Shown: positions 24,787-42,857 of the stretch, piece by piece
Layout of the letters: each line of letters starts with the position of its first letter
Position numbering within the stretch: the stretch's first letter is position 1
DNA from: Phycisphaerae bacterium
GTDB taxonomy: Bacteria > Planctomycetota > Phycisphaerae > UBA1845
Direction: 5' to 3'
DNA: 64,000 nt
Assembly (NCBI GenBank): GCA_024102815.1
Contig: JAGFJJ010000068.1
Location: forward strand, 71,915 to 135,914
Notes under the pieces: generated by a model
What the model was told of the DNA's origin: nothing
What the model saw: only the letters and a program-made list of their open reading frames with translations
Database searches by the model: none
Program-made: the position numbers and the translations under genes

Positions 24787-24802
24787 GGCCTCACCTCCCT
24801 GA

Positions 24803-27784: not shown

Positions 27785-27813
27785 TTAGATGCACAGGGGC
27801 CGGGGCTTCTTCC
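27785..27813 (-). promoter_or_regulatory. ECF-type promoter, site 1
   Basis: On the minus strand GGAAGA (27808-27813), 15 nt, GCATCTAA (27785-27792). It lies 92 nt upstream of the His/Met-rich lipoprotein start at 27693. Confidence 0.8.
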
Positions 27814-27988
27814 GGAAGTTCAAAGAAAAAACTCCGAAAGACATGGCAACCCCAAAGCTGCTGAGGCACACGTAGTGCTGCAGGGCGCGCTTCCCGCGTG
27901 GGGCGAGGTCACCTCACTCGCAAAGCCTGACCCAGAATCCGCTGGCACCTACGCCAGCACTCGTTCGCACGCCGCGGTCTAGCGACCG

Positions 27989-28726
27989 CTACCTGATTGC
28001 TATGATTTCCGCAGCCATTACCCGTCGGTTTGTCGTACGCGCGTTTCGCATCGTTCGGATCAATTCCGAAGACCGGAATCCCGCCGCCCGAAACTCGCCC
28101 AGAAAGGCACCGCCTTCCTTCGCTCCAGCCACTCATGCAAACCAGTTGCACACGTCGCGGCGTTCGTTTTCCGGCAGAGGTTCTTTCAGGATCAACTCAG
28201 CCGCGAATACCCGCCCATTGGTGCGAACCACACGAGCCAGTTCTCGGAAGATCGCTTCGCGGGCGGGGTTAAGATTGAAGATCCCGTTGATGATCACGAC
28301 GTCGATCGACGCGCTCTCGGCGGGAAGTTCCTCGGCATCGCCTTTCCTCACGTCAACATTTTGTGTACCGGCTTCCGTTACGGCTCGCCGGGCGCGATCC
28401 AGCATCGAATCGCTGAAATCTACCGCAATGACCCTGCCGTTGGCAGCGGTACGCTGCGCCGCAATCAACGTGTCGAGTCCCGCACCGCATCCAAGATCAA
28501 GGACGCGCGAATCGGCTGGGATGTCCGCGAACATGCTCACGTTGGACACGCCGGCGAAAGCCTCAACAGCGACTGCGGGCATCGCGTCGAGTACACTGCG
28601 CGGGTAACCGACGCTTTCAGCAAATGTGCGGCCCACAGGGAAGTCATGTTGTTCGTCCGGACGTTGTGCGGCCCGAGAATAGGCTGCACGCACGCCTTCA
28701 CGAAGATCCGCCGAATCCACTTGCAT
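27989..28726 (-). CDS. ArsM-like methyltransferase, probable selenoprotein (TGA 28133-28135)
   Basis: SAM-dependent methyltransferase of the arsenite-methyltransferase-like group. Motif I is VLDLGCGAGLDTL; 'GRVIAVDFSDSMLDRA' and 'NGIFNLNPAREAI' follow the family. The frame reads 'DVCNWFA', then TGA, then 47 more codons ('VAGAKEGGAFLGEFRAAGF...NARTTNRRVMAAEIIAIR') that exactly complete the family's C-terminus. The TGA stands where relatives have the Cys of 'WFACxAGA', as I recall the family. A hairpin at SECIS spacing follows. ATG 28726 is preferred over GTG 28765. Selenocysteine is the simplest reading; a truncated protein ending at WFA is the alternative. The substrate may be arsenite or another metalloid. 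Confidence 0.78.
28101..28119 (-). promoter_or_regulatory. Candidate bacterial SECIS in the methyltransferase gene
   Basis: Counting from U of UGA as 1, nt 17-24 (AGGAAGGC) pair with 28-35 (GCCUUUCU, one G-U) to give 8 bp; the apical loop 25-27 is GGU, as in the classical fdhF-type loop. Spacing UGA-to-loop is 21 nt. Confidence 0.7.
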
Positions 28727-28839
28727 GACGCTACCAGAGCTTTCGTTACAGACGATTCGTGGCACACCGTCTTGTGCCGTTGCGGACTATTCATCCATTT
28801 CGGGCACGGCTCAATCAGACAAATCCTTGCGCCCACCTG

Positions 28840-29346
28840 TCATCCGCACAGGCACAGTTTCATCCCGCATGAACAGCTGGTGGCTTCCTCCTGCGTGGTC
28901 CTGGCACTTTCGGCAAGCATGCTCTTCGACGAGTCCGCCTGCCCACATCGCCTCGCGGATGTAGATACCAGTAGGGCCGACTCCGTTCGAACCGTCGTTG
29001 CGTTGTCGGCTTTGCGCCGATCCACATTCTCAGGCAACTTCAATATGTCGCGACTTGCCGAGCAGATGGTTTCGGTTGTACCGGCATCCGGTTGTCTTTG
29101 GGGCACCGGCTCTACAAGCGGGGCCTCGCACTCCGCGAAGAACTCCGCGTTGTCGCCACACGTTCCGAACTCCGCAATGCCTGACCCGTATTCGTCATCA
29201 ACAAGGCCGTAGGTATCGAGCGACGCTGCCTCAGCGCTCGCCTCCGGCTTGGCGCGGCCATCGCCCGGCTCATCATCCTGTTTACAGGCACCAAGCCAAA
29301 CACAGACGAGCAGCATACTCGGGATCAAAACTTGCCTTCGATTCAC
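28840..29346 (-). CDS. Cys-rich lipoprotein of unknown function
   Basis: 168 aa. GTG 29346 was chosen because GGAGG lies 9 nt upstream and gives a proper lipoprotein signal ('MLLVCVWLGAC'); the frame is open to 29448. The mature part is polar, with 'CGDNAEFFAECE' and a C-terminal cluster 'TSCSCGMKLCLCG' that looks like a metal-binding tail. It follows the anti-sigma gene in the same direction, so it may be co-transcribed from the promoter at 30421-30449. No family recognised. Confidence 0.65.
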   Translation of the reverse strand: MNRRQVLIPSMLLVCVWLGACKQDDEPGDGRAKPEASAEAASLDTYGLVDDEYGSGIAEFGTCGDNAEFFAECEAPLVEPVPQRQPDAGTTETICSASRDILKLPENVDRRKADNATTVRTESALLVSTSARRCGQADSSKSMLAESARTTQEEATSCSCGMKLCLCG

Positions 29347-29486
29347 CGGTCTTTTCCTCCCCTTTTCCGGAGCGATAGCCGCTCTGGACGCCATCATTAG
29401 TCGATTCACGAAAGTTCTCTTTGCGATTCTCCCGAGACCCAACACCAATTCCTTCTATGCGCCCCGGTCGAGTCACACGCGTATCT

Positions 29487-30344
29487 TCAGGGATGATGAT
29501 GGTCGCTCGTCGGCCCTGTTTCGGTTAGTTTGGGCGCAATCGCCGCCATGACCGCCGGCATCTCGCTCTGCTCGTCAACCCTGCTCAGCAGGCAGTGACA
29601 GGTCGTCGGGTCGGTCAAGTGAACCAGTTTCCATTCCCCAACCTGTACCTTGTGTCCGCAGTGGTCGCCGATGACGCAAGGAAGATTCTCGTGCGATCCG
29701 AACTTCTCGTGCTTCATTGGTGGGTGAAACACTGCCGCCAGAAACTCGCCGTCCCTGTCATACGCGGCCGCGATGCCCCTCGTCCCACCGATTCGAAGCT
29801 CATAGACCGACTGCAACCGGAATCCACCCGGTAGCACAGGCGGCGTGTCGAAGTTCAAAGCGGAGGCAATCCGCTTCGCCGCGACAGGCGTCGAAGGCTT
29901 GGCGTCGTAACGCATCAAGAACTTCCTGAACGCCTTTTGAGCGTCGAGCGGCAGGGCGTCGAGCAGAACTCCAAAGTCCACAGTCGATGCATGCGCCGTC
30001 GATTCAAGCGACGACAGGCCGAACATGCTCAGTCCGACGGCGAGGACCACACCCGCAGCGATCGCCCAAGGAGCGCCTCGGAACCGAAGGCGCCGCAACG
30101 GGCGTGCGGGCGAGATCGTCCGGTCCGTCTTGTCGAGTCGTCGTGCGATGGATGCCCAGAGAAAGTCCGGCACGGTCACGGCAGGCGGCTGTGCGATTCC
30201 GCGCACGAGTTCGCGCATTTCCTCCAGTTCGGCCTGACAGCTCGAGCAGAAACCGAGATGGGTCTCGATCTTCTCACGCTCCGCCGCGGATATCTCGTCG
30301 TCCACGTAGCGTCCTAGTTGTCGTTCTACCTGTTCGCAGCACAT
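29487..30344 (-). CDS. Anti-sigma factor with ZAS finger and Cys/His-rich outer domain
   Basis: 285 aa. Cytoplasmic N-terminus with the zinc anti-sigma motif H-x3-C-x2-C (HLGFCSSC, about residues 31-38); one membrane helix ('AIAAGVVLAVGLSMFGLSSL', about 100-120); then an outside domain whose last third is loaded with ligands: HPPMKHEKFGSH, PCVIGDHCGH, TTCHCLL and a terminal HHHP. It should hold the ECF sigma factor encoded just upstream and release it when metal binds outside. ATG 30344 (MCCEQVERQ) is chosen; GTG 30368 is possible. Its own copy of the shared promoter at 30421-30449 implies negative feedback. Copper/silver as signal is inferred from regulon content. Confidence 0.87.
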   Translation of the reverse strand: MCCEQVERQLGRYVDDEISAAEREKIETHLGFCSSCQAELEEMRELVRGIAQPPAVTVPDFLWASIARRLDKTDRTISPARPLRRLRFRGAPWAIAAGVVLAVGLSMFGLSSLESTAHASTVDFGVLLDALPLDAQKAFRKFLMRYDAKPSTPVAAKRIASALNFDTPPVLPGGFRLQSVYELRIGGTRGIAAAYDRDGEFLAAVFHPPMKHEKFGSHENLPCVIGDHCGHKVQVGEWKLVHLTDPTTCHCLLSRVDEQSEMPAVMAAIAPKLTETGPTSDHHHP

Positions 30345-30420
30345 TTTGTTTTGCCCCGTTCGTCGCACACGCGACGTTCATCGACGGGCAGACACCTTTG
30401 ATGGGATCCATGTCTCTTAT

Positions 30421-30449
30421 TTAGATGCGTGGCAGAGAGCGCCCCTTCC
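30421..30449 (-). promoter_or_regulatory. ECF-type promoter, site 2 (anti-sigma gene)
   Basis: GGAAGG (30444-30449 on the minus strand), 15 nt, GCATCTAA (30421-30428). It lies in the short gap between the sigma-factor stop and the anti-sigma start, so the anti-sigma gene can be boosted separately. Confidence 0.85.
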
Positions 30450-30451
30450 GT

Positions 30452-30976
30452 CTATCCGTAACTTTTTCGTAAGATTTCCCGTAACTTGTCTCTGGCACGG
30501 CTTAGCCGGGAGGCTACCGTCCCCTCGGCGCAGTCGAGCGCCTCCGCAATGCCCCGATAATCGAGTTCCTCCTGGTACCGCAGGAGGAGCAATGCCCGGT
30601 CGTCCGGTGGAAGCTCGGCCAGAGCGCTCTCCATGTCGAGTTCAAGGTCGGTCCTGGGCCTCTGCGCCTCGGTAGGCTGATTTGGCGCAACGGCTTGCAG
30701 CTTGACGGTCCCCACACCCTGGCGGCGGCGGAACTGGAGCGCCTCGTTGACGGCGATCCGGTAGAACCAAGACCCGATGGCAGATCGGCCGTCGAATTGA
30801 TCCAGCCGCTGAAGCCCTTTGAAGTAGGTTTCCTGGGTCAGATCCGCGGCGTCGTCCGGGTTGCCGGTCATACGAAGAAGGAGACGATAGATGCGCACGG
30901 ACGTCTGCTCGAACAGTTGGCGCTGAGCTTCTCGCTCGCCTGTCAGGCACCGTTCGATGAGCAGTCGGTCTTCCAC
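30452..30976 (-). CDS. ECF RNA polymerase sigma factor
   Basis: 174 aa, the usual ECF length. Region 2 contains 'DDAADLTQETYFKGLQRL' and 'GSWFYRIAVNEAL'; region 4 has 'LPPDDRALLLLRYQEELDYRGIAEAL' and the helix-turn-helix 'AEGTVASRLSRARDKLREIL'. It starts at GTG 30976 with only a weak AAGG upstream. It follows the SpoIIE gene by 138 nt and precedes the anti-sigma gene by about 107 nt, all on the minus strand. It is the obvious candidate to read the GGAAG(G/A)-N15-GCATC(T/C)AA promoters that surround it on both strands; GGAA-type -35 elements are typical of ECF factors. The pairing is inference from proximity. Confidence 0.92.
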   Translation of the reverse strand: MEDRLLIERCLTGEREAQRQLFEQTSVRIYRLLLRMTGNPDDAADLTQETYFKGLQRLDQFDGRSAIGSWFYRIAVNEALQFRRRQGVGTVKLQAVAPNQPTEAQRPRTDLELDMESALAELPPDDRALLLLRYQEELDYRGIAEALDCAEGTVASRLSRARDKLREILRKSYG

Positions 30977-31114
30977 GCATCCACAACCTTAGATTGCACC
31001 GCTCCTTCGGCGCGAACCATGACTTCGTCACATACAGGCGGCTTTCGATCACCACTCCGGGATCCCTGCATCCGCTCAGCCTGACCGGACTCAGGCTCGA
31101 TCCGACGGCCCATT

Positions 31115-32653
31115 CTAGCGGCAGCCTGTACCGGCCGGAACGGAGGGACGGTTTCTCTCGTCAGATTCACTCCAATCGATGCCAACCAAGGTGACATCAT
31201 CTTCGAATTCCTCCCGTCCACAGAACGAACGGACCCGGCCCAAGGTGGTGGATACCTGCTCCTCCAAGGACAATTGATGCGTCCCGGCGAACAACTCCAA
31301 TACGCGATTTCGGCCGAATTGCTTACCCTGGGGCGACATCGCTTCGTGCAGGCCGTCCGTGAACGCAAGCAGCCTGCTCCTCGGGGCAACCTGAAGGCGG
31401 ACAGATTCATACTTGGCGTCAGCATCCACTCCGAGAAGCAGGCCGGCATGATTCAGCGTGTCTACGCCGCCATCCGGCGTGTTGAGCAACGGCGGATCAT
31501 GGCCTGCGTTCGCATACCCGACTTCGTCGTGTCCCGGTCCCAAGCGAATCAGCACGGCGGTTGCGAACACGCCGGCCGCCGTGATGTCGCAAAGGTCGCG
31601 GTTCAGGCCCTGCGCAATCTCGCCAACATCGTGTGTCTCGCGTGTCAGGTGCCGCAGCGAAGACCGGAGCAAAGCGGTGCAAAGCGCCCCGGGCACGCCG
31701 TGGCCCGTCACGTCGATGACGGCTACCACCGTGGACCCATCGTCGAGCGGTACGATGTCGAAAAAATCGCCCCCGACACTCGCCGTCGGTAGAAACACGG
31801 CTCGAATCCGACAGCCGTGAACCGAGAGGTTCCGGTCGCCCACCAGAGCCCGCTGAATCTCCCGCGCACGCCGCATCTCCGAGGCACGATGATGTTCCGT
31901 GCGGCCAAGCGCTTGAATCATCTGGTTCATACCCTGCGCCAGGTAACGAAGCTCGGCCGCTCCACGTGGCTCGATGGAATGATCAAAACGGCGATCACTG
32001 ACCGCGGCTACGGCCCCAACTAACCCACGCATCGGGTCGCGCACCCAAACGAGCAGGCTTACCGTCGTCACCCCGAAGAGAACCACCACCAGGACTCCCG
32101 TCGCCGCCGCACGACTGACACCCTGCACGCGAAGCAGTTCTTCGACCGGCTGGAGCGAGACCGCGACGACCAGGCTGGCATTTTTGTCGATATTCAGCGA
32201 GTACGCTGCGAACTGTTCACCGCTGAGGTCGAACGTGTGGACATTGTTCGCGCCGTTTTCCATCATCCGGCGCTCGAGTTCGGAATCCGCCCGTTCGTGC
32301 GCCCGGACGAGAACCTCGCCATCCGCATCGAAAACAGCGATGTGATGCCCCGGCGAGGCCGAATTTGTCATCTGTCGACAGAACCCGTCCACGAACCGCT
32401 GGAAACTCTTGGGCTCTCGAAACTGACTCCATGCGGCGCGCAGCACTCGCGCCTCCTCCTGAAGACGAGTCAAGGCGTGCTCAATCTGCGCGTCGGCGTC
32501 GCGCCGATGGTCCACCCATGCGGACACCGCGAGGACGGAAACGACCGTCACATTGACGATGACGCCCAGCCGAAAGGCAAGCGTGTTCCACCAACGCGGC
32601 CCGGCAGCTCGATTGCGCGGGGCACCGCTCGGATTGTTTGAGTCACTCGGCAT
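31115..32653 (-). CDS. Membrane sensor with SpoIIE-type PP2C phosphatase
   Basis: 512 aa. A helix near residue 23-42, an outside region of about 130 residues, a second helix ('ATGVLVVVLFGVTTVSLLVWV', about 188-208), a HAMP-like linker ('VSDRRFDHSIEPRG'), and a C-terminal SpoIIE/PP2C phosphatase with GGDFFDIV, DVTGHGVPGAL, FTDGLHEA and EDDVTLVG. ATG 32653 has GGGAGAG upstream; longer frames lack a start signal and would read through the promoter at 32715-32743. Such phosphatases usually act on anti-anti-sigma (STAS) proteins, but none is encoded nearby. It precedes the ECF sigma gene and carries the same promoter class, so it probably adds a second input to the circuit. Confidence 0.88.
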   Translation of the reverse strand: MPSDSNNPSGAPRNRAAGPRWWNTLAFRLGVIVNVTVVSVLAVSAWVDHRRDADAQIEHALTRLQEEARVLRAAWSQFREPKSFQRFVDGFCRQMTNSASPGHHIAVFDADGEVLVRAHERADSELERRMMENGANNVHTFDLSGEQFAAYSLNIDKNASLVVAVSLQPVEELLRVQGVSRAAATGVLVVVLFGVTTVSLLVWVRDPMRGLVGAVAAVSDRRFDHSIEPRGAAELRYLAQGMNQMIQALGRTEHHRASEMRRAREIQRALVGDRNLSVHGCRIRAVFLPTASVGGDFFDIVPLDDGSTVVAVIDVTGHGVPGALCTALLRSSLRHLTRETHDVGEIAQGLNRDLCDITAAGVFATAVLIRLGPGHDEVGYANAGHDPPLLNTPDGGVDTLNHAGLLLGVDADAKYESVRLQVAPRSRLLAFTDGLHEAMSPQGKQFGRNRVLELFAGTHQLSLEEQVSTTLGRVRSFCGREEFEDDVTLVGIDWSESDERNRPSVPAGTGCR

Positions 32654-32714
32654 CGGCTCTCCCGCCGGGTTTTGGCTAGCATCGCCGGGGCGAGGCGCCG
32701 GCGCCGTCTCTCGT

Positions 32715-32743
32715 TTAGATGCGCGAGCCCCGGTCTGCCTTCC
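32715..32743 (-). promoter_or_regulatory. ECF-type promoter, site 3 (SpoIIE-sigma genes)
   Basis: Minus strand GGAAGG (32738-32743), 15 nt, GCATCTAA (32715-32722), 62 nt before the SpoIIE ATG. Back-to-back with site 4, 28 bp away. Confidence 0.85.
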
Positions 32744-32771: not shown

Positions 32772-32800
32772 GGAAGAATAGGACCCTTCCATGCATCCAA
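32772..32800 (+). promoter_or_regulatory. ECF-type promoter, site 4 (YHS protein)
   Basis: GGAAGA (32772-32777), 15 nt, GCATCCAA (32793-32800), ending 25 nt before ATG 32825. The intergenic region thus carries two divergent copies. Confidence 0.85.
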
Positions 32801-32824: not shown

Positions 32825-33511
32825 ATGGCTCGACGACAGAAACGCCTGCAGCAGCGGCGCCGCGCCAGACCGAAACGGCGTAAAACGCATCCCGTCAGGG
32901 CGCTCGGTTCGAGTCTCGCGGTGGCCACCGTGGCCGGGTTGCTCGGCTGGGTCTGGTGGGCGGGCGAAACCCCACAGCACCCTCTTCCTGACCCACCCTC
33001 CTGGCTGCCAAAGTGCCCTGTCGGCGGCGGTCCGGTGAATTTCGCCCATCGCGTGTCTGCGCCCGACGGCCCCATCTACTTCTGCTGCGAACACTGCATG
33101 GAGCAGTTTCACGCTGCCCCATCGACGTTCAATGCCAAGATCGAATTGCAGCGAAAGGAACTCGACCATCTGCCGCGAATCCAGGTCTCGTGCCCGATTT
33201 CGGGAGATCCACCCGACCCTGCGATATACGTTGAGTCGCCCGCCGGCAGGATTTTCTTCTGCTCGCCGAATTGTCGCGACAAGTACGTAGCGTCGCCGGC
33301 TGAGTACGCCGGCGCTGTTGCCAGTAGCTTTTGGTACCAGACGAAGTGTCCGGTGGATGAGAAGCAGATCGATCCAACCATCCGGGCCACGTTGCCATCA
33401 GGCGAAACGGTCTACGTGTGCTCGCAACGCTGTCACGATGAGCTGATGCAGAACACAGTGGAGTATGCTCCGGGGCTGGCCCTGCAGGGCATACGCCTGC
33501 ACCTTGACTAA
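32825..33511 (+). CDS. Membrane-anchored protein with three YHS-like domains
   Basis: 228 aa. A basic N-terminus, one membrane helix ('LGSSLAVATVAGLLGWVWWAG', about 28-48), then three TRASH/YHS-like metal-binding units: CPVGGGPV...YFCCEHC, CPISGDPP...FFCSPNC, and CPVDEKQI...YVCSQRC. YHS domains bind soft metals, often copper, through such Cys. It is a diverged relative of the triple-YHS protein at 41137-41850: same three-unit layout and similar endings ('PGLALQGIRLHL' against 'PNLVAQGFTVNP'). ATG 32825 lies just after the ECF-type promoter at 32772-32800, which excludes the longer upstream frame. Confidence 0.85.
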   Translation: MARRQKRLQQRRRARPKRRKTHPVRALGSSLAVATVAGLLGWVWWAGETPQHPLPDPPSWLPKCPVGGGPVNFAHRVSAPDGPIYFCCEHCMEQFHAAPSTFNAKIELQRKELDHLPRIQVSCPISGDPPDPAIYVESPAGRIFFCSPNCRDKYVASPAEYAGAVASSFWYQTKCPVDEKQIDPTIRATLPSGETVYVCSQRCHDELMQNTVEYAPGLALQGIRLHLD

Positions 33512-33541: not shown

Positions 33542-33570
33542 GGAAGGAATCGCCCATTCCACGCATCTAA
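33542..33570 (+). promoter_or_regulatory. ECF-type promoter, site 5 (CBM48 operon)
   Basis: GGAAGG (33542-33547), 15 nt, GCATCTAA (33563-33570); first start codon 93 nt further on (33663). Confidence 0.85.
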
Positions 33571-33662: not shown

Positions 33663-33977
33663 GTGACGAACAAAGGCAAACTCGAACACGAGGGGCTGCG
33701 GTCAACGGCCCGAATCACTTGCTTTGCGCCAAACGCCCATGAAATCGCGCTGGTTGGGTCCTTCAACGACTGGGATCCCGGCGCATTGCGAATGACTCAG
33801 GACACTGACGGCCAGTGGAGCGCCGACTTGCAGTTGCCTGCCGGCCGCTACGAGTACAAGTTCGTCGTCGATGGCGTGTCGTGTTGCGACCCGCATTTGA
33901 AGAACGGCCACCCGGACTGCGAACAATGCGCGCCGCATGCCTGCGGTGAACTGAACCGCATTCTTCTGATCCGGTGA
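33663..33977 (+). CDS. Stand-alone CBM48/AMPK-type carbohydrate-binding mini-protein
   Basis: 104 aa. 'ITCFAPNAHEIALVGSFNDWDPGALRM...GQWSADLQLPAGRYEYKFVVDG' is the glycogen-binding fold found in AMPK beta and branching enzymes. It has no catalytic domain and no signal peptide. The C-terminal third departs from the family: CCDPHLKNGHPDCEQCAPHAC, five Cys and two His that could bind metal. GTG 33663 has GGAGG seven nt upstream. It is first in an operon with a redoxin-like lipoprotein (28-nt gap), under the regulon promoter. Why a glycan-binding fold is in a metal regulon is unclear; the Cys tail may be the point. Confidence 0.82.
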   Translation: MTNKGKLEHEGLRSTARITCFAPNAHEIALVGSFNDWDPGALRMTQDTDGQWSADLQLPAGRYEYKFVVDGVSCCDPHLKNGHPDCEQCAPHACGELNRILLIR

Positions 33978-34005: not shown

Positions 34006-34578
34006 ATGCGTGCTTCAAGCATTCTGGCGTCCTTAGCAATCTTGATGTTCTTCTCGGGTTGTGCCGCCCGACGACCGATGCGCGGAAGAGTCGACCAGCC
34101 TGAGCTGGGCCACCATTTCCTGGACTTCTTCTTCGAGGACGAGCATGGGCGCTCCATGACGCTAGGAAATGTACTCGGCGATTTCACAGTGATTGCGTTT
34201 ACTCGTTGCGACAGCGATACGCACGCGGAATCGACCGATTATCTTGAATCCATCATCAAGGAGCATGCTCTGGATGATTCCGTTCGGGTGCGCGCTGTGG
34301 ACGTTCATTGGGCGGACCGCAGTTGCGGAACGCACAAGGACTGTCATCTGCTAGGATCGACCGACAAAGCCATCAGTATCTGTGATGCAACTGGGATGAT
34401 CCGCAAACTCTACGGGGCCACGAAACTCAACGAGTTGTTTCTGATCGGGCCTGACCGGCGTGTCATCGGAAAAGCCACAATGGCCTATCCTGACCCCTTG
34501 CGGCACCAACTGGCCATCGACGTTATACGCTTTCGAGCCCGCCTATACGAGACGCGCCCTCAGGAGCTTGGCAATTAG
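34006..34578 (+). CDS. Redoxin-like lipoprotein, family member 1
   Basis: 190 aa. Lipobox 'LMFFSGC' (Cys about 19). The fold resembles the TlpA/AhpC thioredoxin group ('LGHHFLDFFFEDEHGRSMTL', 'GDFTVIAFTRCDSD', 'FLIGPDRRVIGKA'), but the usual CxxC is absent. Instead a conserved C-x5-C-H (SCGTHKDCHLL) sits mid-protein, followed by ISICD. The same landmarks recur at 42908-43471, 35130-35663 and 35706-36206, forming a family of four. Second gene of the CBM48 operon, with GGAGG before the ATG. An envelope thiol or metal-binding role is inferred. Confidence 0.75.
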   Translation: MRASSILASLAILMFFSGCAARRPMRGRVDQPELGHHFLDFFFEDEHGRSMTLGNVLGDFTVIAFTRCDSDTHAESTDYLESIIKEHALDDSVRVRAVDVHWADRSCGTHKDCHLLGSTDKAISICDATGMIRKLYGATKLNELFLIGPDRRVIGKATMAYPDPLRHQLAIDVIRFRARLYETRPQELGN

Positions 34579-34619: not shown

Positions 34620-35066
34620 GTGACGCCAAGTAAGTCTATACTGGTGCTGAGCAGACATGCGGACCGACGACTCGTCGCATCCGATTCGTACCGGCGTGAA
34701 GGTGCCGTCGTGGTCGAGGTTGAGACGGTCGAGCGGGCCACGGTCATCCTTCGACAACTCCAATTCGACGTGCTCGCTGTCGACTTCTACGGCCTTGGGG
34801 TCGGCGTCATAGAATTCCTCCACGACCTCAGCGTTGATTATCCCCAAACGCGCATTTCCGTCATTGGTCCGCCCGTTGACAGCGATGTGCTCGCGTTGAT
34901 CCCAGTGCCGCATGCAGTCTATCGGCCCGCAGCAGGCAATCACAAACATCTCGGAGCGGCCGGTTCCGGAAATCACTGCGAAGGTGGACTTGATTCGAAG
35001 CACGACCCGGGCGGCATCTTCGGTAGTACGCGACAAGAGCAGACAGATCTTCAGGAAGACGGGTGA
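34620..35066 (+). CDS. Degenerate receiver-like protein
   Basis: 148 aa. Residues about 5-105 look like a response-regulator receiver: 'ILVLSRHADRRLVASDSYRREGAVVVEVETV', then 'FDVLAVDFYG' where the phosphorylated Asp would lie, and 'RISVIGPPVDSD'. The acidic pair at the N-terminus and the usual Thr/Lys are not obvious, so phosphorylation is doubtful. The rest (about 40 residues) is low-complexity. GTG start with GGAG upstream. It follows the lipoprotein gene by 41 nt, and promoter site 6 overlaps its 3' end. Could also be a non-receiver flavodoxin-like fold. Confidence 0.55.
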   Translation: MTPSKSILVLSRHADRRLVASDSYRREGAVVVEVETVERATVILRQLQFDVLAVDFYGLGVGVIEFLHDLSVDYPQTRISVIGPPVDSDVLALIPVPHAVYRPAAGNHKHLGAAGSGNHCEGGLDSKHDPGGIFGSTRQEQTDLQEDG

Positions 35067-35082
35067 GACGCCGTGCATCTAA
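35054..35082 (+). promoter_or_regulatory. ECF-type promoter, site 6
   Basis: GGAAGA (35054-35059), 15 nt, GCATCTAA (35075-35082). The -35 lies inside the end of the receiver-like gene. Downstream bases 'ATGGCTTGACCA' resemble those after site 7, pointing to duplication of the whole unit. Confidence 0.85.
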
Positions 35083-35129: not shown

Positions 35130-35663
35130 ATGATCACTCAACGAGTACTTCCGGACCTGCGGCTTTCGAACGGAGATGGCAGACATCGGCCGCTCCGAGA
35201 CTACCTGGCCGACTTCAACATCCTGCTGATCCGACGTGTACCTCTGGCATCGCATGGGCCGGCAACGCGCCTTCTGCGGCGACTGTTGGTCGAGAACCGC
35301 GGTGGCGACCATGTAGCGGCGCGCGCGTTCGACGTTCGGTCGCCGGATCAACCCTGTGAAACGTGCCACGGACCGCACATCGTATTCAATGGGCCGGAAC
35401 TCGCGACGATCTGTGACGGCGACGGCAGCATGCTTCGGCAATTCGACGTCATCGGTGATGACCGGTTCTTCGTCGTGAGATCTGGCCCGCAGGTGTTTGA
35501 CGTGGGCTGCCTTGAGGAGATCAGCCAATCGGGACTGAAAATCAATTTGGAGGAGGTCTCATCGGGCGATCATATCGCCCGGGCGCCGCCCAAGCGCAGG
35601 CATGCGGACGCGTCGCGAACAATTCGCGATGGAAGATCGCAACCGTGTCGTGCATCTAATTGA
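35130..35663 (+). CDS. Cytoplasmic redoxin-like protein, family member 3
   Basis: 177 aa, no signal peptide. 'LPDLRLSNGDGRHRPLRDYLADFNILLI' gives the redoxin-type start; then 'AFDVRSPDQPCETCHGPHIVFNGPELATICD' with C-x2-C-H where the lipoprotein members have C-x5-C-H, and the shared ICD. The last 30 residues are basic and disordered and overlap promoter site 7. TTGGAGGA precedes ATG 35130. It is a close neighbour and paralogue of 35706-36206. Thiol redox or metal binding likely; no enzyme name is justified. Confidence 0.7.
   Translation: MITQRVLPDLRLSNGDGRHRPLRDYLADFNILLIRRVPLASHGPATRLLRRLLVENRGGDHVAARAFDVRSPDQPCETCHGPHIVFNGPELATICDGDGSMLRQFDVIGDDRFFVVRSGPQVFDVGCLEEISQSGLKINLEEVSSGDHIARAPPKRRHADASRTIRDGRSQPCRASN
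35631..35659 (+). promoter_or_regulatory. ECF-type promoter, site 7
   Basis: GGAAGA (35631-35636), 15 nt, GCATCTAA (35652-35659), wholly inside the 3' end of the preceding gene; 47 nt before ATG 35706. Confidence 0.82.
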
Positions 35664-35705: not shown

Positions 35706-36206
35706 ATGTTACGCCTGAGAATGCTTCCGGGTTTCAGACTCGCAGACGGGGACGGCCATGAGCGACCGTTCGATGACTTCCTGGCGGATTTCAACGTCAT
35801 TCTGCTGACTCATACATCTGAGTCGTGTCGTGGTGCCACGGACGAACTGCTTCGCAGCTTCCTGGCGGAAGGACGGGGTGTCGCCGGCGTATCGATTCAT
35901 GGGATTGATATTCGTTCGCACGACGCGTTCTGCAAACAATGCTGCGGCCCGCACGTGGTCTTCCACGGGCGCGAGCTCATCACGATCTGCGACAGCGGCG
36001 CTTGGATCCGCCGTCTCTGGGGCGTGGAAAGCGACGCTTGGATCCTGATCGTGAACGCAGGGCGACATGTCCTCGATGACGGCCCGCTCACGGAGATCGA
36101 ACGCCTGGCCATGCAATTCGGTCTGGATGCGGCGTTGTCGCCACATCGCAGTGCACGGGCACCGCCCACGAGAGAAGGGACGGGCCGGAGAGATACGGCC
36201 GCATAG
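35706..36206 (+). CDS. Cytoplasmic redoxin-like protein, family member 4
   Basis: 166 aa, paralogue of the preceding gene. Shared blocks: 'LPGFRLADGDGHERPFDDFLADFNVILL', 'GIDIRSHDAFCKQCCGPHVVFHGRELITICD', then 'RRLWGVESDAW'. The motif is C-x2-C-C-GPH. AGGAG precedes ATG 35706. It has its own promoter copy (site 7), and the pair looks like a tandem duplication of promoter plus gene. About 290 bp without a gene follow before the beta-barrel gene; a GCATCC there (36437) lacks a -35 partner. Confidence 0.7.
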   Translation: MLRLRMLPGFRLADGDGHERPFDDFLADFNVILLTHTSESCRGATDELLRSFLAEGRGVAGVSIHGIDIRSHDAFCKQCCGPHVVFHGRELITICDSGAWIRRLWGVESDAWILIVNAGRHVLDDGPLTEIERLAMQFGLDAALSPHRSARAPPTREGTGRRDTAA

Positions 36207-36498
36207 TGGCCTTTACTTCGCCGACACCGAGCAGGCGGTAGATGAGAGAACACGTTGCGGGCAGACCGGCCGGGCCAAGTGCCGACTCGCGGTGAGCCGG
36301 CTGGCCCGGTCGTGGGATCAAGTTCGGAGCGCAAGCGGATCGATTCGACGGAGCTGAGCATGATTGCCTAGCGCGTCGGTTGACCGCTTGCGTTCCCGTG
36401 ATTCCACACGAATCGATTTACGGTGAGCCGCACATCGCATCCAGCGCGGTCAGAATGCGATGCTCTCCGGCAAAAGATCAAGAATGGAGAAGTACTAT

Positions 36499-37536
36499 AT
36501 GTTCAACCATAACTCGGGATCGGGCAGTTTCAGCCCAATCTGGATTCTCGCCTCCGTTGCGATCGGCGCGCTACTCAACACGACCGAGTGTTCAAGTGTA
36601 CAGGCACAGTCAAACGACCTTTCTCTACGGCATGCTAGCTTCCTAGGTCAAGAAACCTACGACGCACCCGCTGACACTTCCAGGCGCGACCATCCGCGCT
36701 GGGTTGAGGATATGGAATCCAAGGCCTGGCCTGGATTCCTGACCGGCATGTCCGGCTACGAAGATTTCGTGATGCCGGTCGGGATGCCCATCTACTTCGA
36801 GGATCCGTTCATCACAACGGATCTGCGTTTGCTCTATATGCATCACGATATTCCGCGTGATTCGGTGTTGGGTAACGGGCAGGTTCACGTTGCTGCTGCA
36901 CAAATCAGAGTCGCCCTTACGGAGCGGCTTGCGTTCATCGTTACCAAGGGCGGCTATAGCTGGGTTGACAGCCGCGCCACACCGGAAGGGGACGGCTGGA
37001 ATGACTGGGGGCTTGGTCTGAAGTATGCCCTTTACAGCAACCCTGACGAGCAGTTTCTCGTGAGTGCCGGCCTTCGATGGGAGCTGTCGAACGGCTCTGC
37101 CGAAGCTTGGCAAGGCGGAAAGTCCGATGAGCTCAGCCCGTTCGTGAGCATGGCCAAGGGCTGGGAAAAGTGGCATTTTCTCGGTGCTTTGAGTGGGCGA
37201 ATCCCTACAAACCGAGATGCTGCCAACACCAGCCTCGTCTGGAACCTGCACTTGGACTACGAGCTGACCGAGACGTTTCGCCCGTTGATCGAGGTCCACG
37301 GTATCCACTATCTCTCGAGTGCCGACGAGTTTCCGTATAACGCCGATTACCTCGATGTCGGAAGCCTTGGGGCCACGGACGTCACCGGCCGTGACTTCTT
37401 CTCTGCGGGCTTCGGGTTTCGTTGGCAGGCGAGGGACAATGTTTCCGTTGGTCTGACGTATGAGGTGCCGTTGGAAAGCGCTTCAGAAAACCTGCAAGAG
37501 CATCGGGTCACGTTCAATACGATCATTAGCTTCTAG
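36499..37536 (+). CDS. Outer-membrane beta-barrel protein
   Basis: 345 aa. ATG 36499 is chosen because GGAG of the preceding codons gives a proper ribosome site; ATG 36484 and the 36460 start are alternatives. A signal-like segment ('WILASVAIGALLNTTECSSVQAQ') is followed by alternating amphipathic strands with aromatic girdles and a C-terminal strand ending in Phe ('VTFNTIISF'), the outer-membrane barrel signature. 'GGYSWVDSRAT', 'WNDWGLGLKYALY' and 'FGFRWQARDNVSVGLTYEVPL' are typical strands. Specific family not recognised. No regulon promoter copy directly precedes it; it may be read from site 7. Confidence 0.7.
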   Translation: MFNHNSGSGSFSPIWILASVAIGALLNTTECSSVQAQSNDLSLRHASFLGQETYDAPADTSRRDHPRWVEDMESKAWPGFLTGMSGYEDFVMPVGMPIYFEDPFITTDLRLLYMHHDIPRDSVLGNGQVHVAAAQIRVALTERLAFIVTKGGYSWVDSRATPEGDGWNDWGLGLKYALYSNPDEQFLVSAGLRWELSNGSAEAWQGGKSDELSPFVSMAKGWEKWHFLGALSGRIPTNRDAANTSLVWNLHLDYELTETFRPLIEVHGIHYLSSADEFPYNADYLDVGSLGATDVTGRDFFSAGFGFRWQARDNVSVGLTYEVPLESASENLQEHRVTFNTIISF

Positions 37537-37684: not shown

Positions 37685-37713
37685 GGAAGACGTCGCATGG
37701 TTCATGCATCTAA
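37685..37713 (+). promoter_or_regulatory. ECF-type promoter, site 8 (ABC operon)
   Basis: GGAAGA (37685-37690), 15 nt, GCATCTAA (37706-37713), 66 nt before ATG 37780. Confidence 0.85.
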
Positions 37714-37779: not shown

Positions 37780-38061
37780 ATGTGGATCGGAATCATCGCA
37801 GCCGCGGCGTTTTGCACGGGATTCCTACTTGCGTCCCTGCTCGCGTGCGGGAAGACCGCTGACGAAGAGATGCGGCGGATACGGAAGAGTATGTTCTCAC
37901 GAGGCGATTTGGATTCGGTAACCGGAACGGGCGGACCGGGTAGACGGTTGGTCACGCCATCGCCTCAAGCGAATTCGGCGTACAACGGTTTGGATGTTAA
38001 GACGGCCGAGACGGGCCGTGTACCGGCAGTGAACATCATGCGGAGGGTCGAAGCGACATGA
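37780..38061 (+). CDS. Small membrane protein heading an ABC transporter operon
   Basis: 93 aa. One N-terminal helix ('IGIIAAAAFCTGFLLASLLAC', with a possible lipobox Cys) and a polar tail. ATG 37780 was chosen; GTG 37765 is in frame. Its stop overlaps the next start by 4 nt (ATGA), so it is translationally coupled to the permease. No family recognised; an accessory lipoprotein of the exporter is plausible. Confidence 0.6.
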   Translation: MWIGIIAAAAFCTGFLLASLLACGKTADEEMRRIRKSMFSRGDLDSVTGTGGPGRRLVTPSPQANSAYNGLDVKTAETGRVPAVNIMRRVEAT

Positions 38062-39164
38062 TCGTACTATTCACAAGGAGCCTGTTGCATCGTTGGTTCG
38101 AGATCGTGCTTACGTCGGTGGTCGTGGCAGCCGTCGTCGCGACACTCACCACGCAGCGTGCGTTGTCTGCATCAACCGAGGCGCAAGTCCACGAGCTTGC
38201 GCACAAGCTCGGCAAGAACATGCTCGTCGTTCCCAAGGCGACGAATCTCTCCAGCTTTTACGCCATGGACTATGGCGAAGCGTCGATGCCGGACTCGTAC
38301 CCGGATCGAATCCTCGAGTCCCCCGAATTGCGCACACCCATCAGTCTTATCCAATCGCGCCTGTACGGCAACGTCGAGCCGAAGGGCGTTCCACTCGTAC
38401 TTGTCGGCGAACAAACAATGAAGCGCGGGCGTGTCGCCGATCCGTTCTCGTCCGACCGGGTCATCATTGGCAATACTGCTTCGGACAAACTTGCCGTCAA
38501 ACCAAACGACCATGTGGACGTCAACGGGTATCAACTGACCGTCGCGAACGTGGTGCAGACGCCACCCGACGGGCTGGATGTCGGCGTCTTTGGACCGCTC
38601 GACCTAGCCCAGGACGTACTCGACCGCCCTGAACAGCTCAACGCGATGCGCCTCGCCGGCTGCTGGTGTCGCTTGGACGTTCCCAAGCTGGCTTCGCAAG
38701 TTGAAGATACCCTTCCCGGAACCAGAGCCGTAACCATTGCCGGGATGCTCAAGGCCCAGAAGGGAACGGTGGCCACGGCGAAACGCTACTCGAAAGTCGC
38801 GATGGCGATCACGGTCGCACTCATCGCCGCCATCGTGATTGGGCTTATTGCATCACAGGTGCGCCGGCAGATCCGGCAGATCGGGCTGCTACTGGCCACG
38901 GGCTCTTCACCATGGTTCGTCGTGCTTTTGTTCACAAGTAAGGCCGCAATCATCGGCCTTCTCGGCGGTCTGGCCGGCTACTGGCTGGGGTTCCCACTGA
39001 CCGAGGACATAGCCGCTCGACTGATCGGCATCAGCCTGCCCGTTCCGAGCGGCTTGCTGGCGCCGACCATAACGCTCGCCCTTGTCGTGAGCGTGGCGGC
39101 CGCGGCGATCCCGGCATTCTGGGCGGCACGCCTCGATCCGACGAGGGTACTCAGGGAGGTATGA
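38058..39164 (+). CDS. ABC transporter permease, FtsX/MacB type
   Basis: 368 aa. One N-terminal helix, a periplasmic domain of about 200 residues with 'CWCRLDVPKL', and three C-terminal helices with the FtsX fold ('VRRQIRQIGLLLATGSSPWFVVLL', ending 'AARLDPTRVLREV', the classic MacB/LolC tail). Such permeases transmit ATPase force to the periplasm for lipoprotein or substrate release rather than forming a channel. It pairs with the ATPase 39166-39867 and a second FtsX protein 39864-40976, giving a heteromeric LolCDE-like complex under the regulon promoter. Confidence 0.88.
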   Translation: MIVLFTRSLLHRWFEIVLTSVVVAAVVATLTTQRALSASTEAQVHELAHKLGKNMLVVPKATNLSSFYAMDYGEASMPDSYPDRILESPELRTPISLIQSRLYGNVEPKGVPLVLVGEQTMKRGRVADPFSSDRVIIGNTASDKLAVKPNDHVDVNGYQLTVANVVQTPPDGLDVGVFGPLDLAQDVLDRPEQLNAMRLAGCWCRLDVPKLASQVEDTLPGTRAVTIAGMLKAQKGTVATAKRYSKVAMAITVALIAAIVIGLIASQVRRQIRQIGLLLATGSSPWFVVLLFTSKAAIIGLLGGLAGYWLGFPLTEDIAARLIGISLPVPSGLLAPTITLALVVSVAAAAIPAFWAARLDPTRVLREV

Positions 39165-39165
39165 A

Positions 39166-39867
39166 ATGATTCACATTGACCAAGCGACAAAGCGCTTTCC
39201 CGGCAAGAACGGCTCTCCCGTCACGGCTCTTCGTGACATCTCGCTCGACGTTGGCCCCGGCGAACTCGTCATGATTGTCGGCCCCAGTGGAAGCGGCAAG
39301 AGCACGCTTCTGTTTACGATCGGAGGCATGCAGCATCCGACCGAGGGGCGTGTCTTGTTTGACGACACGGACGTTTACGGGTTGAGTCCGTCCAGGCGCG
39401 CTGCGTGGCGTCGAACGCGCATTGGCTTCGTCTTCCAGACATTCAATCTCGTGCCGTACCTTAGTTGCCTCGAGAACGTCATCGTTCCGGCCGTGCTGGC
39501 CGGTAAGTCGAGAGGTGTCAGCCTTCGACGAGCCAGCACTCTGCTCGAACGCCTGGGGCTTTCGGAACGTCTGAAGCACAGGCCGTCGGAACTGAGCGTC
39601 GGCGAACGGCAGCGCGTCGCGCTTTGTCGGAGCCTCATCAACGATCCCGATGTGATTCTCGCCGACGAGCCGACCGGCAACTTGGATGAGTCCATGACCG
39701 GCGATGTGATGAATGTGCTCCGCGATCTCAATGCCGGAGGCCAGACCATCATGATGGCCACCCACAACCCGCGCCTCGCAGAGCAGGGGACGCGCCTCGT
39801 GACCCTTCAAGAGGCAAACCTCGTGAGGGACGAGCCGTGCATGTGCGTAGCAGAGGCAACGCTATGA
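39166..39867 (+). CDS. ABC transporter ATP-binding protein, LolD/MacB type
   Basis: 233 aa. Walker A GPSGSGKSTLL, Q-loop 'FVFQTFNLVPYLS', signature LSVGERQRVALCRSL (LSVGE in place of LSGGQ), Walker B 'VILADEPTGNLDE', H-loop 'MMATHNPRLA'. It powers the two FtsX-type permeases on either side; the start follows the first permease stop by 1 nt and the stop overlaps the next ATG by 4 nt. Confidence 0.92.
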   Translation: MIHIDQATKRFPGKNGSPVTALRDISLDVGPGELVMIVGPSGSGKSTLLFTIGGMQHPTEGRVLFDDTDVYGLSPSRRAAWRRTRIGFVFQTFNLVPYLSCLENVIVPAVLAGKSRGVSLRRASTLLERLGLSERLKHRPSELSVGERQRVALCRSLINDPDVILADEPTGNLDESMTGDVMNVLRDLNAGGQTIMMATHNPRLAEQGTRLVTLQEANLVRDEPCMCVAEATL

Positions 39868-40976
39868 CCCCGGCCATGTGGCTTTCCATACAGGAGCTAA
39901 CGAAACGCCGCTTTGGAACAGCCATCGCGGTCAGCGTGATCGCGCTTGCCGTTTCGTTTGCCGCCGGCCTCGAGTTGGTGGCCAGGGCGCGCGAAGCCGC
40001 GGTAGCCGCGGATCTTGACCAGATCGGTCCGGCAATCCGGGTCATCCCCCGAGAAAAGACAGCGAGAGACCTGGCCCGATTCGAACTGGAGACAGCACCG
40101 TTCCATGGGACGGACGTTCGCCGTCTGCGTAGCGAATTCCGATCGTTCGTGTCATCCATCGAGGGGCGACTGTCGCTCAAGGTTCCGTACGGCGGGCGTC
40201 GGATTCCCGTCGTAGGTGTCGTGCCGGAGACCGTTGTCGCGCCATCGGATCTGTTTCGGCAATTGGGCGAGAATCAGTTACTCATCGGCGCGGAATTGGC
40301 GACCGAACTGGGCATCACACCGGGAGAAACGGTACAACTACAAGGGCATCCCTTTGAAGTCCTCGCGGTGGTTCCGGCGACCGCGAGCCAGGATGACTCT
40401 GCTGTTTTTCTCCATCTTGGGCGCCTGCAGCAGATGTTCAGCCTGCCTGATTCCTATAATGAACTGCGCGTCTTTCCGGCCCCGGGCGCCGACGTAGATG
40501 CGCTTGCAGTCTCGATCGCCGCGCGCCATACGAATATGACGGCGCTGACCACCCAACGGGGCGAAACAGCCGAGCAGTCGATGCATACGACATTGCGCGA
40601 CCACCGGCGCGTCTTGTACTTGGTCACCGGTGTAGTTATCGCAGTCAGCGTCCTGATCTGGTCGTACATGAACGGCACCGAGCGCCGCCTTGAACTGGCC
40701 ACGTTGGTTGCGGTGGGCGGGTCCGCGTGGACTATCGTCTCGATGATCCTCACCCGCGGCGCTCTTCTCGGCGCTTCCGGCGCGGTCGTGGGCCTTCTGG
40801 TAGGCGTGGCGATCAGCCTCGGACAGGATGCGGGATCGACCTTGCGCATCCTTCCAGCCCTTGACCTGGCCGGGGTCACTATTGTTACGACAACGATACT
40901 CTCCGCCGTCGGCGCGCTGCCGGCCGCGGGCCTTGCGGCCGTTCAGGACCCTGTGAAAGCCCTGCAGGCCGCCTGA
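39864..40976 (+). CDS. ABC transporter permease, FtsX type (second)
   Basis: 370 aa. An N-terminal helix ('GTAIAVSVIALAVSFAAGLELV'), a periplasmic domain, and three C-terminal helices ('LYLVTGVVIAVSVLIWSYMNGTERRLELATLVAVGG', ending 'AAVQDPVKALQAA'). ATG 39864 overlaps the ATPase stop (ATGA), so the frame from 39837 is not used. Last gene of the four-gene exporter operon from promoter site 8. Substrate unknown; membership in the regulon suggests lipoprotein sorting or export under metal stress. Confidence 0.86.
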   Translation: MTPAMWLSIQELTKRRFGTAIAVSVIALAVSFAAGLELVARAREAAVAADLDQIGPAIRVIPREKTARDLARFELETAPFHGTDVRRLRSEFRSFVSSIEGRLSLKVPYGGRRIPVVGVVPETVVAPSDLFRQLGENQLLIGAELATELGITPGETVQLQGHPFEVLAVVPATASQDDSAVFLHLGRLQQMFSLPDSYNELRVFPAPGADVDALAVSIAARHTNMTALTTQRGETAEQSMHTTLRDHRRVLYLVTGVVIAVSVLIWSYMNGTERRLELATLVAVGGSAWTIVSMILTRGALLGASGAVVGLLVGVAISLGQDAGSTLRILPALDLAGVTIVTTTILSAVGALPAAGLAAVQDPVKALQAA

Positions 40977-41020
40977 ATTCGAGAGGCATGTCAGGGCCCG
41001 GTTCTTTTCTCAAGAGCGAT

Positions 41021-41049
41021 GGAAGGAACCGCAGGGCCTGTGCATCCAA
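41021..41049 (+). promoter_or_regulatory. ECF-type promoter, site 9 (triple-YHS protein)
   Basis: GGAAGG (41021-41026), 15 nt, GCATCCAA (41042-41049), 87 nt before ATG 41137. Confidence 0.85.
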
Positions 41050-41136
41050 TTGGAAGTAAGGGCCGGGATCACGAACTCAAACCGTGGGGTTTGGGCGGGA
41101 TGCCCGTTGGATTCGTATCGAAGGAGATTGTCTACG

Positions 41137-41850
41137 ATGAATACTTTCGTCAAGAAGTCTGCTGTGGGATGCGTCGCGGTTTTGGGTCTGGCTGCGATGC
41201 CGGTATGGGCACAACACGAAGGTCACGGTGACCACGGTAAGATGGCCATGTCGCCGGCAAAGGAGCTTCCGATGTGCCCCGTGATGGGCGAACCGATCAA
41301 CCTGGCCGTGAGTGTGGCCACCGATGAGGGGCCGGTATTCTTCTGTTGCAAGGACTGCGTGTCCAAGTACCAGGCCAACCCTGCGAAGTACGCGACGAAG
41401 GTCGCGGCGCAACGGGAAGCGATGGCGGCGCGGCCGAAGGTTCAGGTCACCTGCCCCGTATCCAAGGAGCCGGTCGACCTGGATGTGTTCGTCGAAAGCA
41501 ACGGTAACAAGGTCTACTTCTGCTGTAAGGGCTGTGTCAACAAGTACAAGCGCGACCCAAACAAGTACGCCGCTACGCTGGCGAACAGCTACACCTACCA
41601 GACCAAGTGCCCCGTAATGGGCGAGGACATCGACCCGAAGTCCTTCACGACGGCCGCAAACGGCATGAACATCTACTTCTGTTGCAAGGGCTGCGACAAG
41701 AAGTTCTTCGCTGATCCAGTCAAGTACGCGCCCAATCTGGTCGCTCAGGGCTTCACGGTGAATCCGAAAGAGATGGCACACGATGAAGGCGAGAAAGCGG
41801 GTCACGACCACGAGTCGCATGACCACAGCGGGCACGATCACGATCATTGA
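41137..41850 (+). CDS. Secreted triple-YHS metal-binding protein with His-rich tail
   Basis: 237 aa. Signal peptide (SAVGCVAVLGLAAMPVWA), a short HEGHGDHGK stretch, then three well-conserved YHS/TRASH units (CPVMGEPI...FFCCKDC; CPVSKEPV...YFCCKGC; CPVMGEDI...YFCCKGC), each about 65-70 residues apart, and a tail of HD/DH repeats ending DHDH. AAGGAGA precedes ATG 41137. Expected to bind several soft-metal ions in the periplasm. Promoter site 9 puts it in the ECF regulon; the anchored paralogue is at 32825-33511. Confidence 0.88.
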   Translation: MNTFVKKSAVGCVAVLGLAAMPVWAQHEGHGDHGKMAMSPAKELPMCPVMGEPINLAVSVATDEGPVFFCCKDCVSKYQANPAKYATKVAAQREAMAARPKVQVTCPVSKEPVDLDVFVESNGNKVYFCCKGCVNKYKRDPNKYAATLANSYTYQTKCPVMGEDIDPKSFTTAANGMNIYFCCKGCDKKFFADPVKYAPNLVAQGFTVNPKEMAHDEGEKAGHDHESHDHSGHDHDH

Positions 41851-42007
41851 GACATTCGCGCTTCCGCTAACGGTCGATCGTAAACGCTGAGAACCCCTGG
41901 AGAATACAGCACACCGACCGGTCGCGCTGATTCTGCACATCCTTCTGTGTGAGGGAACGACATGCTGCATCGGCCATCCGGCAAACGGCTTCGGCTGACC
42001 ATATACC

Positions 42008-42802
42008 ATGAAACGCCACGTGTCATCCTATTCCCAATCCCCCGTGTGGCACCGGTACTCGGTGATCACCGCGGTATTCATTGTTGTCGCGTTGGCCCGC
42101 GTGCCCGAGACCCTCGCACAGGCGCCGGTCAACAAGATGTGCCCGGTGATGAGCCTGGAAGAGGCCGATCCGGCCATTACCACGCAGTATCACGGCAAGA
42201 CGATCGCGTTCTGTTGCGACAACTGCCTGAAGAAGTTCCGGGCGAACCCGGAACGGTACGCTGGCAACACAGCGGTTCTTGCCGACGACAAGCCAGATCA
42301 GGCCAAGCACGAGCGTACGTCGAAGGGGGGCGCCGCGGAACACGGACACGACCACGCGTCCGACGAACCGAGAACACCGTTCTTAGCGCGCATTCATCCG
42401 ATCGTGGTTCACCTCCCGCTGGCAGGGACCCCGATCGCGCTGGTCGCAACGCTTGGCTGGCTCGCGTCGCGCAGAAAACTATTCGCCTACGCCGACGTAC
42501 CTGCGCTTGTGCTAGCCGCGGCGTCTTCCATCGTCGGCGTCGTCACCGGCAACATTGCCCACGATTCTATGCGCTTTTCGCCGGCGCTTCACGGCTACGT
42601 CGAGTGGCATCAGTTTTCCGCGACGGCCCTGATGATCCTCCTGCTGGTCCTTAGCGGTGTTCGCCTCTGGCGTTGGCGTCGGTTGAGCGGCAGATGGTTT
42701 GTCGCCTACGCGACAGGGTTGATTGCGGCGTCGGCGCTTGTCGGCGCGGTCGGGTTCCTCGGTGGCAGCCTGGTATTCGGCCCAGACCACTTGTGGCCTT
42801 AA
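42008..42802 (+). CDS. YHS domain fused to DUF2231 membrane domain
   Basis: 264 aa. Signal/anchor ('ITAVFIVVALARVPETLAQ'), one YHS unit (CPVMSLEEADPA...AFCCDNC, about 45-85), a His linker (HGHDHASD), then a four-helix membrane domain beginning 'ARIHPIVVHLPLAGTPIALVATLGW', the DUF2231 signature, with conserved His in 'HDSMRF' and 'ALHGYVEWHQFS'. DUF2231 proteins are often linked to haem or copper but have no firm function. It follows the triple-YHS gene by 157 nt and may be read from site 9. Confidence 0.82.
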   Translation: MKRHVSSYSQSPVWHRYSVITAVFIVVALARVPETLAQAPVNKMCPVMSLEEADPAITTQYHGKTIAFCCDNCLKKFRANPERYAGNTAVLADDKPDQAKHERTSKGGAAEHGHDHASDEPRTPFLARIHPIVVHLPLAGTPIALVATLGWLASRRKLFAYADVPALVLAAASSIVGVVTGNIAHDSMRFSPALHGYVEWHQFSATALMILLLVLSGVRLWRWRRLSGRWFVAYATGLIAASALVGAVGFLGGSLVFGPDHLWP

Positions 42803-42828
42803 GTGAGCACGATATCCGCGGCAGTTTC

Positions 42829-42857
42829 GGAAGGAAATCGTGTCGGCATGCATCTAA
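42829..42857 (+). promoter_or_regulatory. ECF-type promoter, site 10 (cus operon)
   Basis: GGAAGG (42829-42834), 15 nt, GCATCTAA (42850-42857), 50 nt before ATG 42908; it should drive the whole 42908-52554 block. Confidence 0.87.

Follow-up and report, generated by a model that had tools for sequence, protein, structure and literature searches.

We consider it highly likely, judging from sequence, that a 64,000-nucleotide stretch of a Phycisphaerae bacterium genome (the window; contig JAGFJJ010000068.1, C68:71915-135914) carries an autoregulated extracytoplasmic function (ECF) sigma-factor regulon for envelope copper/silver handling. Its signature is the bipartite motif GGAAGR-N15-GCATCYAA, whose reader is very probably the sigma factor with its gene amid the sites. 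Ten mismatch-free copies were present at 27785-42857, none being expected from 100 shuffles, and each matched in coordinates and strand the copies listed by an earlier reading of the DNA alone (the sequence-only reading). The putative ECF promoter copies are:

Copy 1: 27785..27813, minus strand, 91 nt before the gene of a Met/His-rich lipoprotein
Copy 2: 30421..30449, minus strand, between the sigma gene, whose stop codon it follows by 2 nt, and the anti-sigma gene
Copy 3: 32715..32743, minus strand, 61 nt before the SpoIIE gene, which probably forms an operon with the sigma gene
Copy 4: 32772..32800, plus strand, 24 nt before a YHS gene
Copy 5: 33542..33570, plus strand
Copy 6: 35054..35082, plus strand
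Copy 7: 35631..35659, plus strand
Copy 8: 37685..37713, plus strand
Copy 9: 41021..41049, plus strand
Copy 10: 42829..42857, plus strand, ahead of the redoxin D and Cus genes

The distances from the end of the motif to the start codon were 24, 46, 47, 50, 61, 66, 76, 87, 91 and 92 nt, the same 24-92 nt range as first reported; the start codons at 37780, 41137 and 30344 were picked by us from the sequences. A scan of both strands of the whole genome (5.09 Mb, 79 contigs), proposed with the sequence-only reading, gave 11 perfect motifs, 10 of them in the window cluster, and the clustering, fixed spacer and location before start codons are what would be expected of an ECF regulon. Each copy in this genome faces towards a gene. 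The invariance of the 15-nt spacer was borne out, other lengths occurring at background: allowing spacers of 8-24 nt added just two matches in this genome (N13 and N19), against three for a reversed-pattern control. Across 51 genomes of the same family there were 102 exact sites and five for the reversed pattern, and when spacers of 8-22 nt were combined (166 sites) the 14 lengths other than 15 averaged about five each. Matches with up to two mismatches barely exceeded the control genome-wide (108 against 91), and so the regulon is defined here by near-perfect sites; relaxing the motif to two or three mismatches gave background levels, and we claim no weaker members. The ten sites cover 15 kb, and the extent of about 25 kb first proposed is reached only when the Cus operon is counted with them.

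Alignment of 94 unique sites gave the consensus GGAAGRAA, a free spacer and GCATCYAA, together with an A-rich run 14-18 nt ahead of the -35 element. A purine lies 7 nt past the motif in 90% of these sites (p = 1e-13, a value that is indicative, the sites being related). If this purine is taken as +1, the invariant C of the motif falls at -10, which fits an ECF promoter; RpoE requires a C at this position (PMC8103513). A scan for sigma-70 promoters found no excess. The motif was also considered as a repeat, a miniature inverted-repeat transposable element or a palindrome, and these were rejected, the spacer being free and the motif asymmetric.

Three genes on the minus strand encode the anti-sigma factor, the sigma factor and the SpoIIE protein:

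29487..30344, minus strand, anti-sigma factor with an N-terminal zf-HC2 domain (HxxxCxxC), one membrane helix and a periplasmic RseB/MucB-C-like domain (predicted)
30452..30976, minus strand, ECF sigma factor of 174 aa, sigma-70 ECF superfamily
31115..32653, minus strand, membrane sensor phosphatase (SpoIIE) with putative membrane helices flanking a periplasmic domain, HAMP and SpoIIE/PP2C domains, acidic motifs intact

The sigma gene lies amid the sites, as the sequence-only reading had it. Its product consists of sigma2 and sigma4 only, scores well above the ECF superfamily cut-off (TIGR02937, 106 bits; cut-off 42.9), is matched across both regions by the structures of SigH, SigW and RpoE, and ends in RKSYG with no Cys-rich tail. 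The system has its own putative GGAA-type bipartite promoter both before the SpoIIE-sigma unit and between the sigma and anti-sigma genes. No motif copy directly precedes the sigma gene, either within two mismatches in 24 relatives or in the window gap, and it is for this reason that a SpoIIE-sigma operon is proposed; the SpoIIE gene probably heads the apparent sigma operon in this genome, and the same neighbourhood was found in L054, L083 and L116. SpoIIE had been named as a target, and a site does precede its gene, although it appears to be the first gene of the sigma operon as well, not a target only. The locus does not make up a SpoIIE partner-switching module: no STAS match was found on this contig, six being elsewhere in the genome, the local anti-sigma factor is of the zf-HC2 type and not an RsbW-type kinase, and no SpoIIE partner is encoded nearby.

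Comparison with relatives ties the motif to the clade of this sigma factor. In the sigma tree, one supported clade has the site (at most one mismatch) 2-23 nt past the sigma match and before the anti-sigma gene in 33 of 35 rows, as against none of the 33 rows outside it. Of the two exceptions, one (L052) retains a site in decayed form, and another contig of that genome (L118) carries a site before an anti-sigma gene next to a partial sigma match. The sigma-promoter-anti-sigma unit recurs in about 30 related genomes, the nearest named relatives being Phycisphaerae metagenome bins. Within the family, a site was present in 31 of 32 genomes with a sigma orthologue but in only 4 of 19 without (Fisher p = 1.7e-8), where an orthologue means a match at about 46% identity or more and G038, with partial matches at contig ends, is counted as having one. 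The single sites of G009, G011 and G012 do not adjoin a sigma gene and may be due to chance. These three genomes and G010, all of genus g6, each carry one perfect motif with similar spacers, away from the contig of the best sigma match, which may be a coincidence within a conserved gene.

That the motif is an ordinary repressor or activator operator, or a dispersed repeat, is very improbable on this evidence. Operators can also be fixed bipartite motifs, and a MerR gene is located at 24361-25047, but this motif is non-palindromic, the free variation of its spacer excludes a repeat, every copy in this genome is oriented to a gene, purines peak where +1 is predicted, which puts the C at -10, and the motif tracks one sigma clade.

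The eleventh perfect site (C56:57267-57295) lies 8 nt beyond the conserved stretch of a paralogous sigma gene (C56:56746-57258), whose product is 41% identical to the window sigma factor and which stands beside a second cusA-like gene. All 11 perfect sites therefore belong to this type of system, and the two sigma factors probably share a promoter class. The regulon, described at first as complete, is so locally; genome-wide it is not, since this C56 sigma/anti-sigma pair holds a further site. At that locus (L131) the sigma frame reads through the site and overlaps the anti-sigma gene, and the cusA-like gene then follows in convergent orientation. The presence of the same motif at the end of the paralogue's own gene could mean that another sigma factor, such as the paralogue, is the main reader of the motif and that the local one plays a minor part. 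We regard this as improbable: the site stands directly behind the local sigma orthologues throughout the clade, genomes that lack the orthologue but have many other ECF sigma factors mostly lack the motif, and the window cluster has ten sites to one at the paralogue locus.

Beyond the clade the promoter changes. A sister clade (Planctomycetaceae, Pirellulales and a 'Kuenenia' bin) has adjacent sigma and anti-sigma genes with no internal site; most members instead carry [TC]GAAGR-N15-GCATCYAA before the sigma gene or before a divergent gene. Two genes behind such sites (L096, L103) encode Cys-rich proteins that we take to resemble copper-storage (Csp) proteins. Seven sigma residues separate the clades with G-type and T/C-type promoters, none of which could be linked to promoter base 1. 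In 148 other Planctomycetota sampled, the motif minus its first base was at background (57 against 53 in the control). Two bins labelled Nitrospira sp. CR1.3 and Bacteroidetes (L077, L080) also have the sigma-promoter-anti-sigma unit, through gene transfer or mis-binning. In an Acidobacteria bin (L095) a perfect motif (1198-1226) stands 29 nt ahead of a sigma gene that is more distantly related (39% identity), a hint that the promoter class predates Planctomycetota.

The anti-sigma factor is of class I: its N-terminal domain matches zf-HC2 (PF13490, 40.4 bits; cut-off 22.2), RsiW (E 6e-8) and RsrA, its gene lies beside the sigma gene, and H29, C33 and C36 are invariant. No Pfam match was found for the periplasmic part. 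In the predicted model (predicted local distance difference test score, pLDDT, 81) this part resembles the C-terminal domain of RseB/MucB (Z 8.4-9.0 over 93-97 residues, root-mean-square deviation 2.7-3.1, with a Foldseek E of only 0.01), which is suggestive of a RseB/MucB-C-like fold. Among 25 anti-sigma sequences the residues C223, H228, H242, C249 and C251 never vary, and H218, H231 and H250 hardly do. This Cys/His cluster is a likely metal site or sensor, and by its sequence the anti-sigma factor, with conserved Cys/His residues in an RseB/MucB-C-like domain, looks likely to be a previously undescribed kind of metal sensor. Sister-clade anti-sigma factors have CCxC and FEH motifs in the same region. 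Rather tentatively, a Planctomycetota ECF lineage might detect periplasmic copper or silver directly, via an RseB-like domain within the anti-sigma factor, in two clades with different Cys/His layouts and promoter variants (position 1 G versus T/C), and the SpoIIE sensor phosphatase might tie the metal response to partner-switching signalling.

The genes that would be controlled by the sites are:

26995..27693, minus strand, lipoprotein-like protein with a Met/His-rich C-terminus; no Pfam match, relatives in seven related loci
32825..33511, plus strand, YHS/TRASH-type metal-binding protein
33663..33977, plus strand, small CBM48/AMPK1_CBM-like protein with a Cys-rich C-terminus; a relative in L071 is likewise behind a motif copy
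34006..34578, plus strand, redoxin-like lipoprotein A; predicted thioredoxin fold, no CxxC
35130..35663, plus strand, redoxin-like protein B
35706..36206, plus strand, redoxin-like protein C
36460..37536, plus strand, outer-membrane-type protein; weak LIC11086 family match
37780..38061, plus strand, small putative membrane protein, with a G025 relative that is likewise behind a motif copy
38058..40976, plus strand, ABC exporter (FtsX-type permease, LolD/MacB-like ATPase, FtsX-type permease)
41137..41850, plus strand, triple YHS-domain periplasmic protein; better conserved than any other target but the anti-sigma gene
42008..42802, plus strand, YHS + DUF2231 membrane protein
42908..43471, plus strand, redoxin-like lipoprotein D
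43778..45259, plus strand, CusC-like outer-membrane efflux protein
45259..48360, plus strand, CusB-like adaptor with a long extension of heavy-metal-binding (HMBD) repeats
48424..52203, plus strand, CusA-like RND (resistance-nodulation-division) pump; it retains three Met-bearing motifs in alignment with E. coli CusA

Sites on other contigs of the relatives stand before genes of these same families. In relatives overall, the gene that comes first behind a site most often encodes the anti-sigma factor or a triple-YHS protein (YHS3) divergent from sigma. Sites distant from the sigma gene precede YHS3 (L144, L149, L152, L154), SpoIIE (L137, L151), redoxin-like (two in L133) and CusB-like genes (L133, L155), a gene whose product is 75% identical to the window's outer-membrane protein (L138), and the gene of a protein related to the small one encoded ahead of the ABC exporter (L141); behind some distal sites the following gene could not be placed or no clear gene was seen. 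In G022 the gene 75% identical to that of the window outer-membrane-type protein has a motif copy to itself.

Copper or silver is proposed as the signal because of these target genes. The LLYMP, APLxMVETT and RIDMLSTGIK motifs of the CusA-like pump align with E. coli CusA, where we take the Met-bearing motifs to be the metal path of a Cu/Ag heavy-metal-efflux RND pump. The four redoxin-like paralogues (34006-34578, 35130-35663, 35706-36206 and 42908-43471) have a predicted thioredoxin/ResA/Sco-like fold with no CxxC at the usual place; their invariant C107, C126 and D127, together with a Cys/His-rich loop, suggest a metal-binding role. The CusB-like adaptor (45259-48360) contains at least five HMBD repeats, and at the C56 locus a separate protein, apparently of similar HMBD-like repeats, is encoded beside cusA (L131, 15030-16382). 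The same regulon could answer to another soft metal, to thiol/disulphide stress or to envelope damage sensed by the RseB-like domain, given that RseB and MucB are sensors of envelope stress and not of metals, and that redoxin-like targets and an ABC exporter suit a broader envelope response. We think this unlikely, if the most credible of the alternatives: the majority of targets are YHS/TRASH, HMBD, Met/His-rich or CusCBA proteins, related loci add Cys-rich proteins that resemble copper-storage proteins, and the CusA-like pump retains its Met motifs.

Sequence and comparative tests show the class of promoter, the constancy of its geometry, the link to one sigma clade and the target families; around them we infer a scheme for transcription, sigma release, metal as the signal, which metal that is, and any role of SpoIIE in the circuit. 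The anti-sigma factor (29487-30344) would hold the sigma factor (30452-30976) at the membrane via its cytoplasmic zinc-finger domain. Periplasmic metal, most likely binding the Cys/His cluster of the RseB/MucB-C-like domain, would free the sigma factor, which with RNA polymerase would read the GGAAGR-N15-GCATCYAA promoters. The products would be YHS metal-binding proteins, redoxin-like lipoproteins, the ABC exporter, CusCBA, the Met/His-rich lipoprotein and the SpoIIE-type sensor phosphatase. Positive feedback would come via the probable SpoIIE-sigma operon, and negative feedback via a promoter that the anti-sigma gene has to itself, between it and the sigma gene.

Several points weigh against this scheme. 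The regulon is known from DNA alone, promoter activity and sigma binding being predicted, and in the purine and co-occurrence statistics sites and genomes that are related count as independent. The assembly is a draft, the genome has about 20 sigma-like matches, and the C56 paralogue may use the same promoters. The likeness to RseB/MucB (Z about 9) is near the level that unrelated models can reach, and metal binding by the anti-sigma factor is deduced from conserved residues only. We conclude that the ECF regulon is real, clearly bounded and strongly supported by comparison; the metal and the sensing step are what we infer.

Elsewhere in the window, a second metal-efflux block (5395-25047) encodes two RND pumps with adaptors, a P-type ATPase, a CopZ-zinc-finger/MerT/HMA fusion and the MerR gene; it contains no copy of the ECF motif and is therefore probably under other control. 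A 1455-aa NACHT and HEAT-repeat protein, possibly for defence or signalling, is encoded at 24-4391, and a group II intron (Rfam RF02005) with its own reverse transcriptase lies at 54747-56608 on the minus strand. Near the contig end the metal region adjoins a plasmid-like or conjugative element (59402-63973) with genes for a replication-relaxation protein, a TOTE-type primase and a TrwB-like coupling protein; a plasmid search with the region gave no match.

The system shares features with several known ones. Like RpoE-RseA-RseB of E. coli and AlgU-MucA-MucB of Pseudomonas, it has an ECF sigma factor, a membrane anti-sigma factor, a GGAA-type -35, a TCTAA-like -10 with C at -10 and, in the predicted model, a periplasmic part suggestive of the RseB/MucB-C fold; unlike them, the RseB-like part is fused to the anti-sigma factor and has conserved Cys/His residues, and the targets are metal genes. 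The N-terminal domain matches class I (zf-HC2) anti-sigma factors of the RsiW/RsrA type, but the match stops before the periplasmic Cys/His domain. In CnrYXH of Cupriavidus metallidurans, too, an ECF sigma factor governs an RND metal pump through a membrane-bound system. Sensing there is by the separate CnrX, whereas here the class I anti-sigma factor itself bears the candidate sensor; CnrY, for its part, is a class II anti-sigma factor (PMC8103513). CorE and CorE2 of Myxococcus xanthus (formerly ECF44, now ECF238) are likewise ECF sigma factors tied to copper genes. CorE has a Cys-rich C-terminal sensor and no anti-sigma factor (PMC3107203, PMC8999054), and the copper ECF sigma factors known so far resemble it in carrying their own sensor and lacking an anti-sigma factor (PMC3107203, PMC8999054, PMC10141476). 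The window sigma factor, in contrast, has no Cys-rich extension and is paired with a zinc-finger membrane anti-sigma factor, placing it outside the CorE class (ECF44/ECF238). No paper on this sigma clade or promoter was found in the literature searched, a scope that did not take in the main and largest ECF classification, that of 2021 with its 157 groups; within that scope, the description of the regulon as undescribed stands.

Planctomycetota encode many ECF sigma factors, few of them with a known promoter or signal. For one ECF clade, sequence alone here supplies a promoter, a candidate sensor and a list of targets, with base-level predictions, and the recurrence of the unit in about 30 genomes opens the joint change of sigma factor and promoter to direct study. 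If the anti-sigma factor is indeed the metal sensor, it would represent a copper-sensing route separate from CueR, CusRS and CorE.

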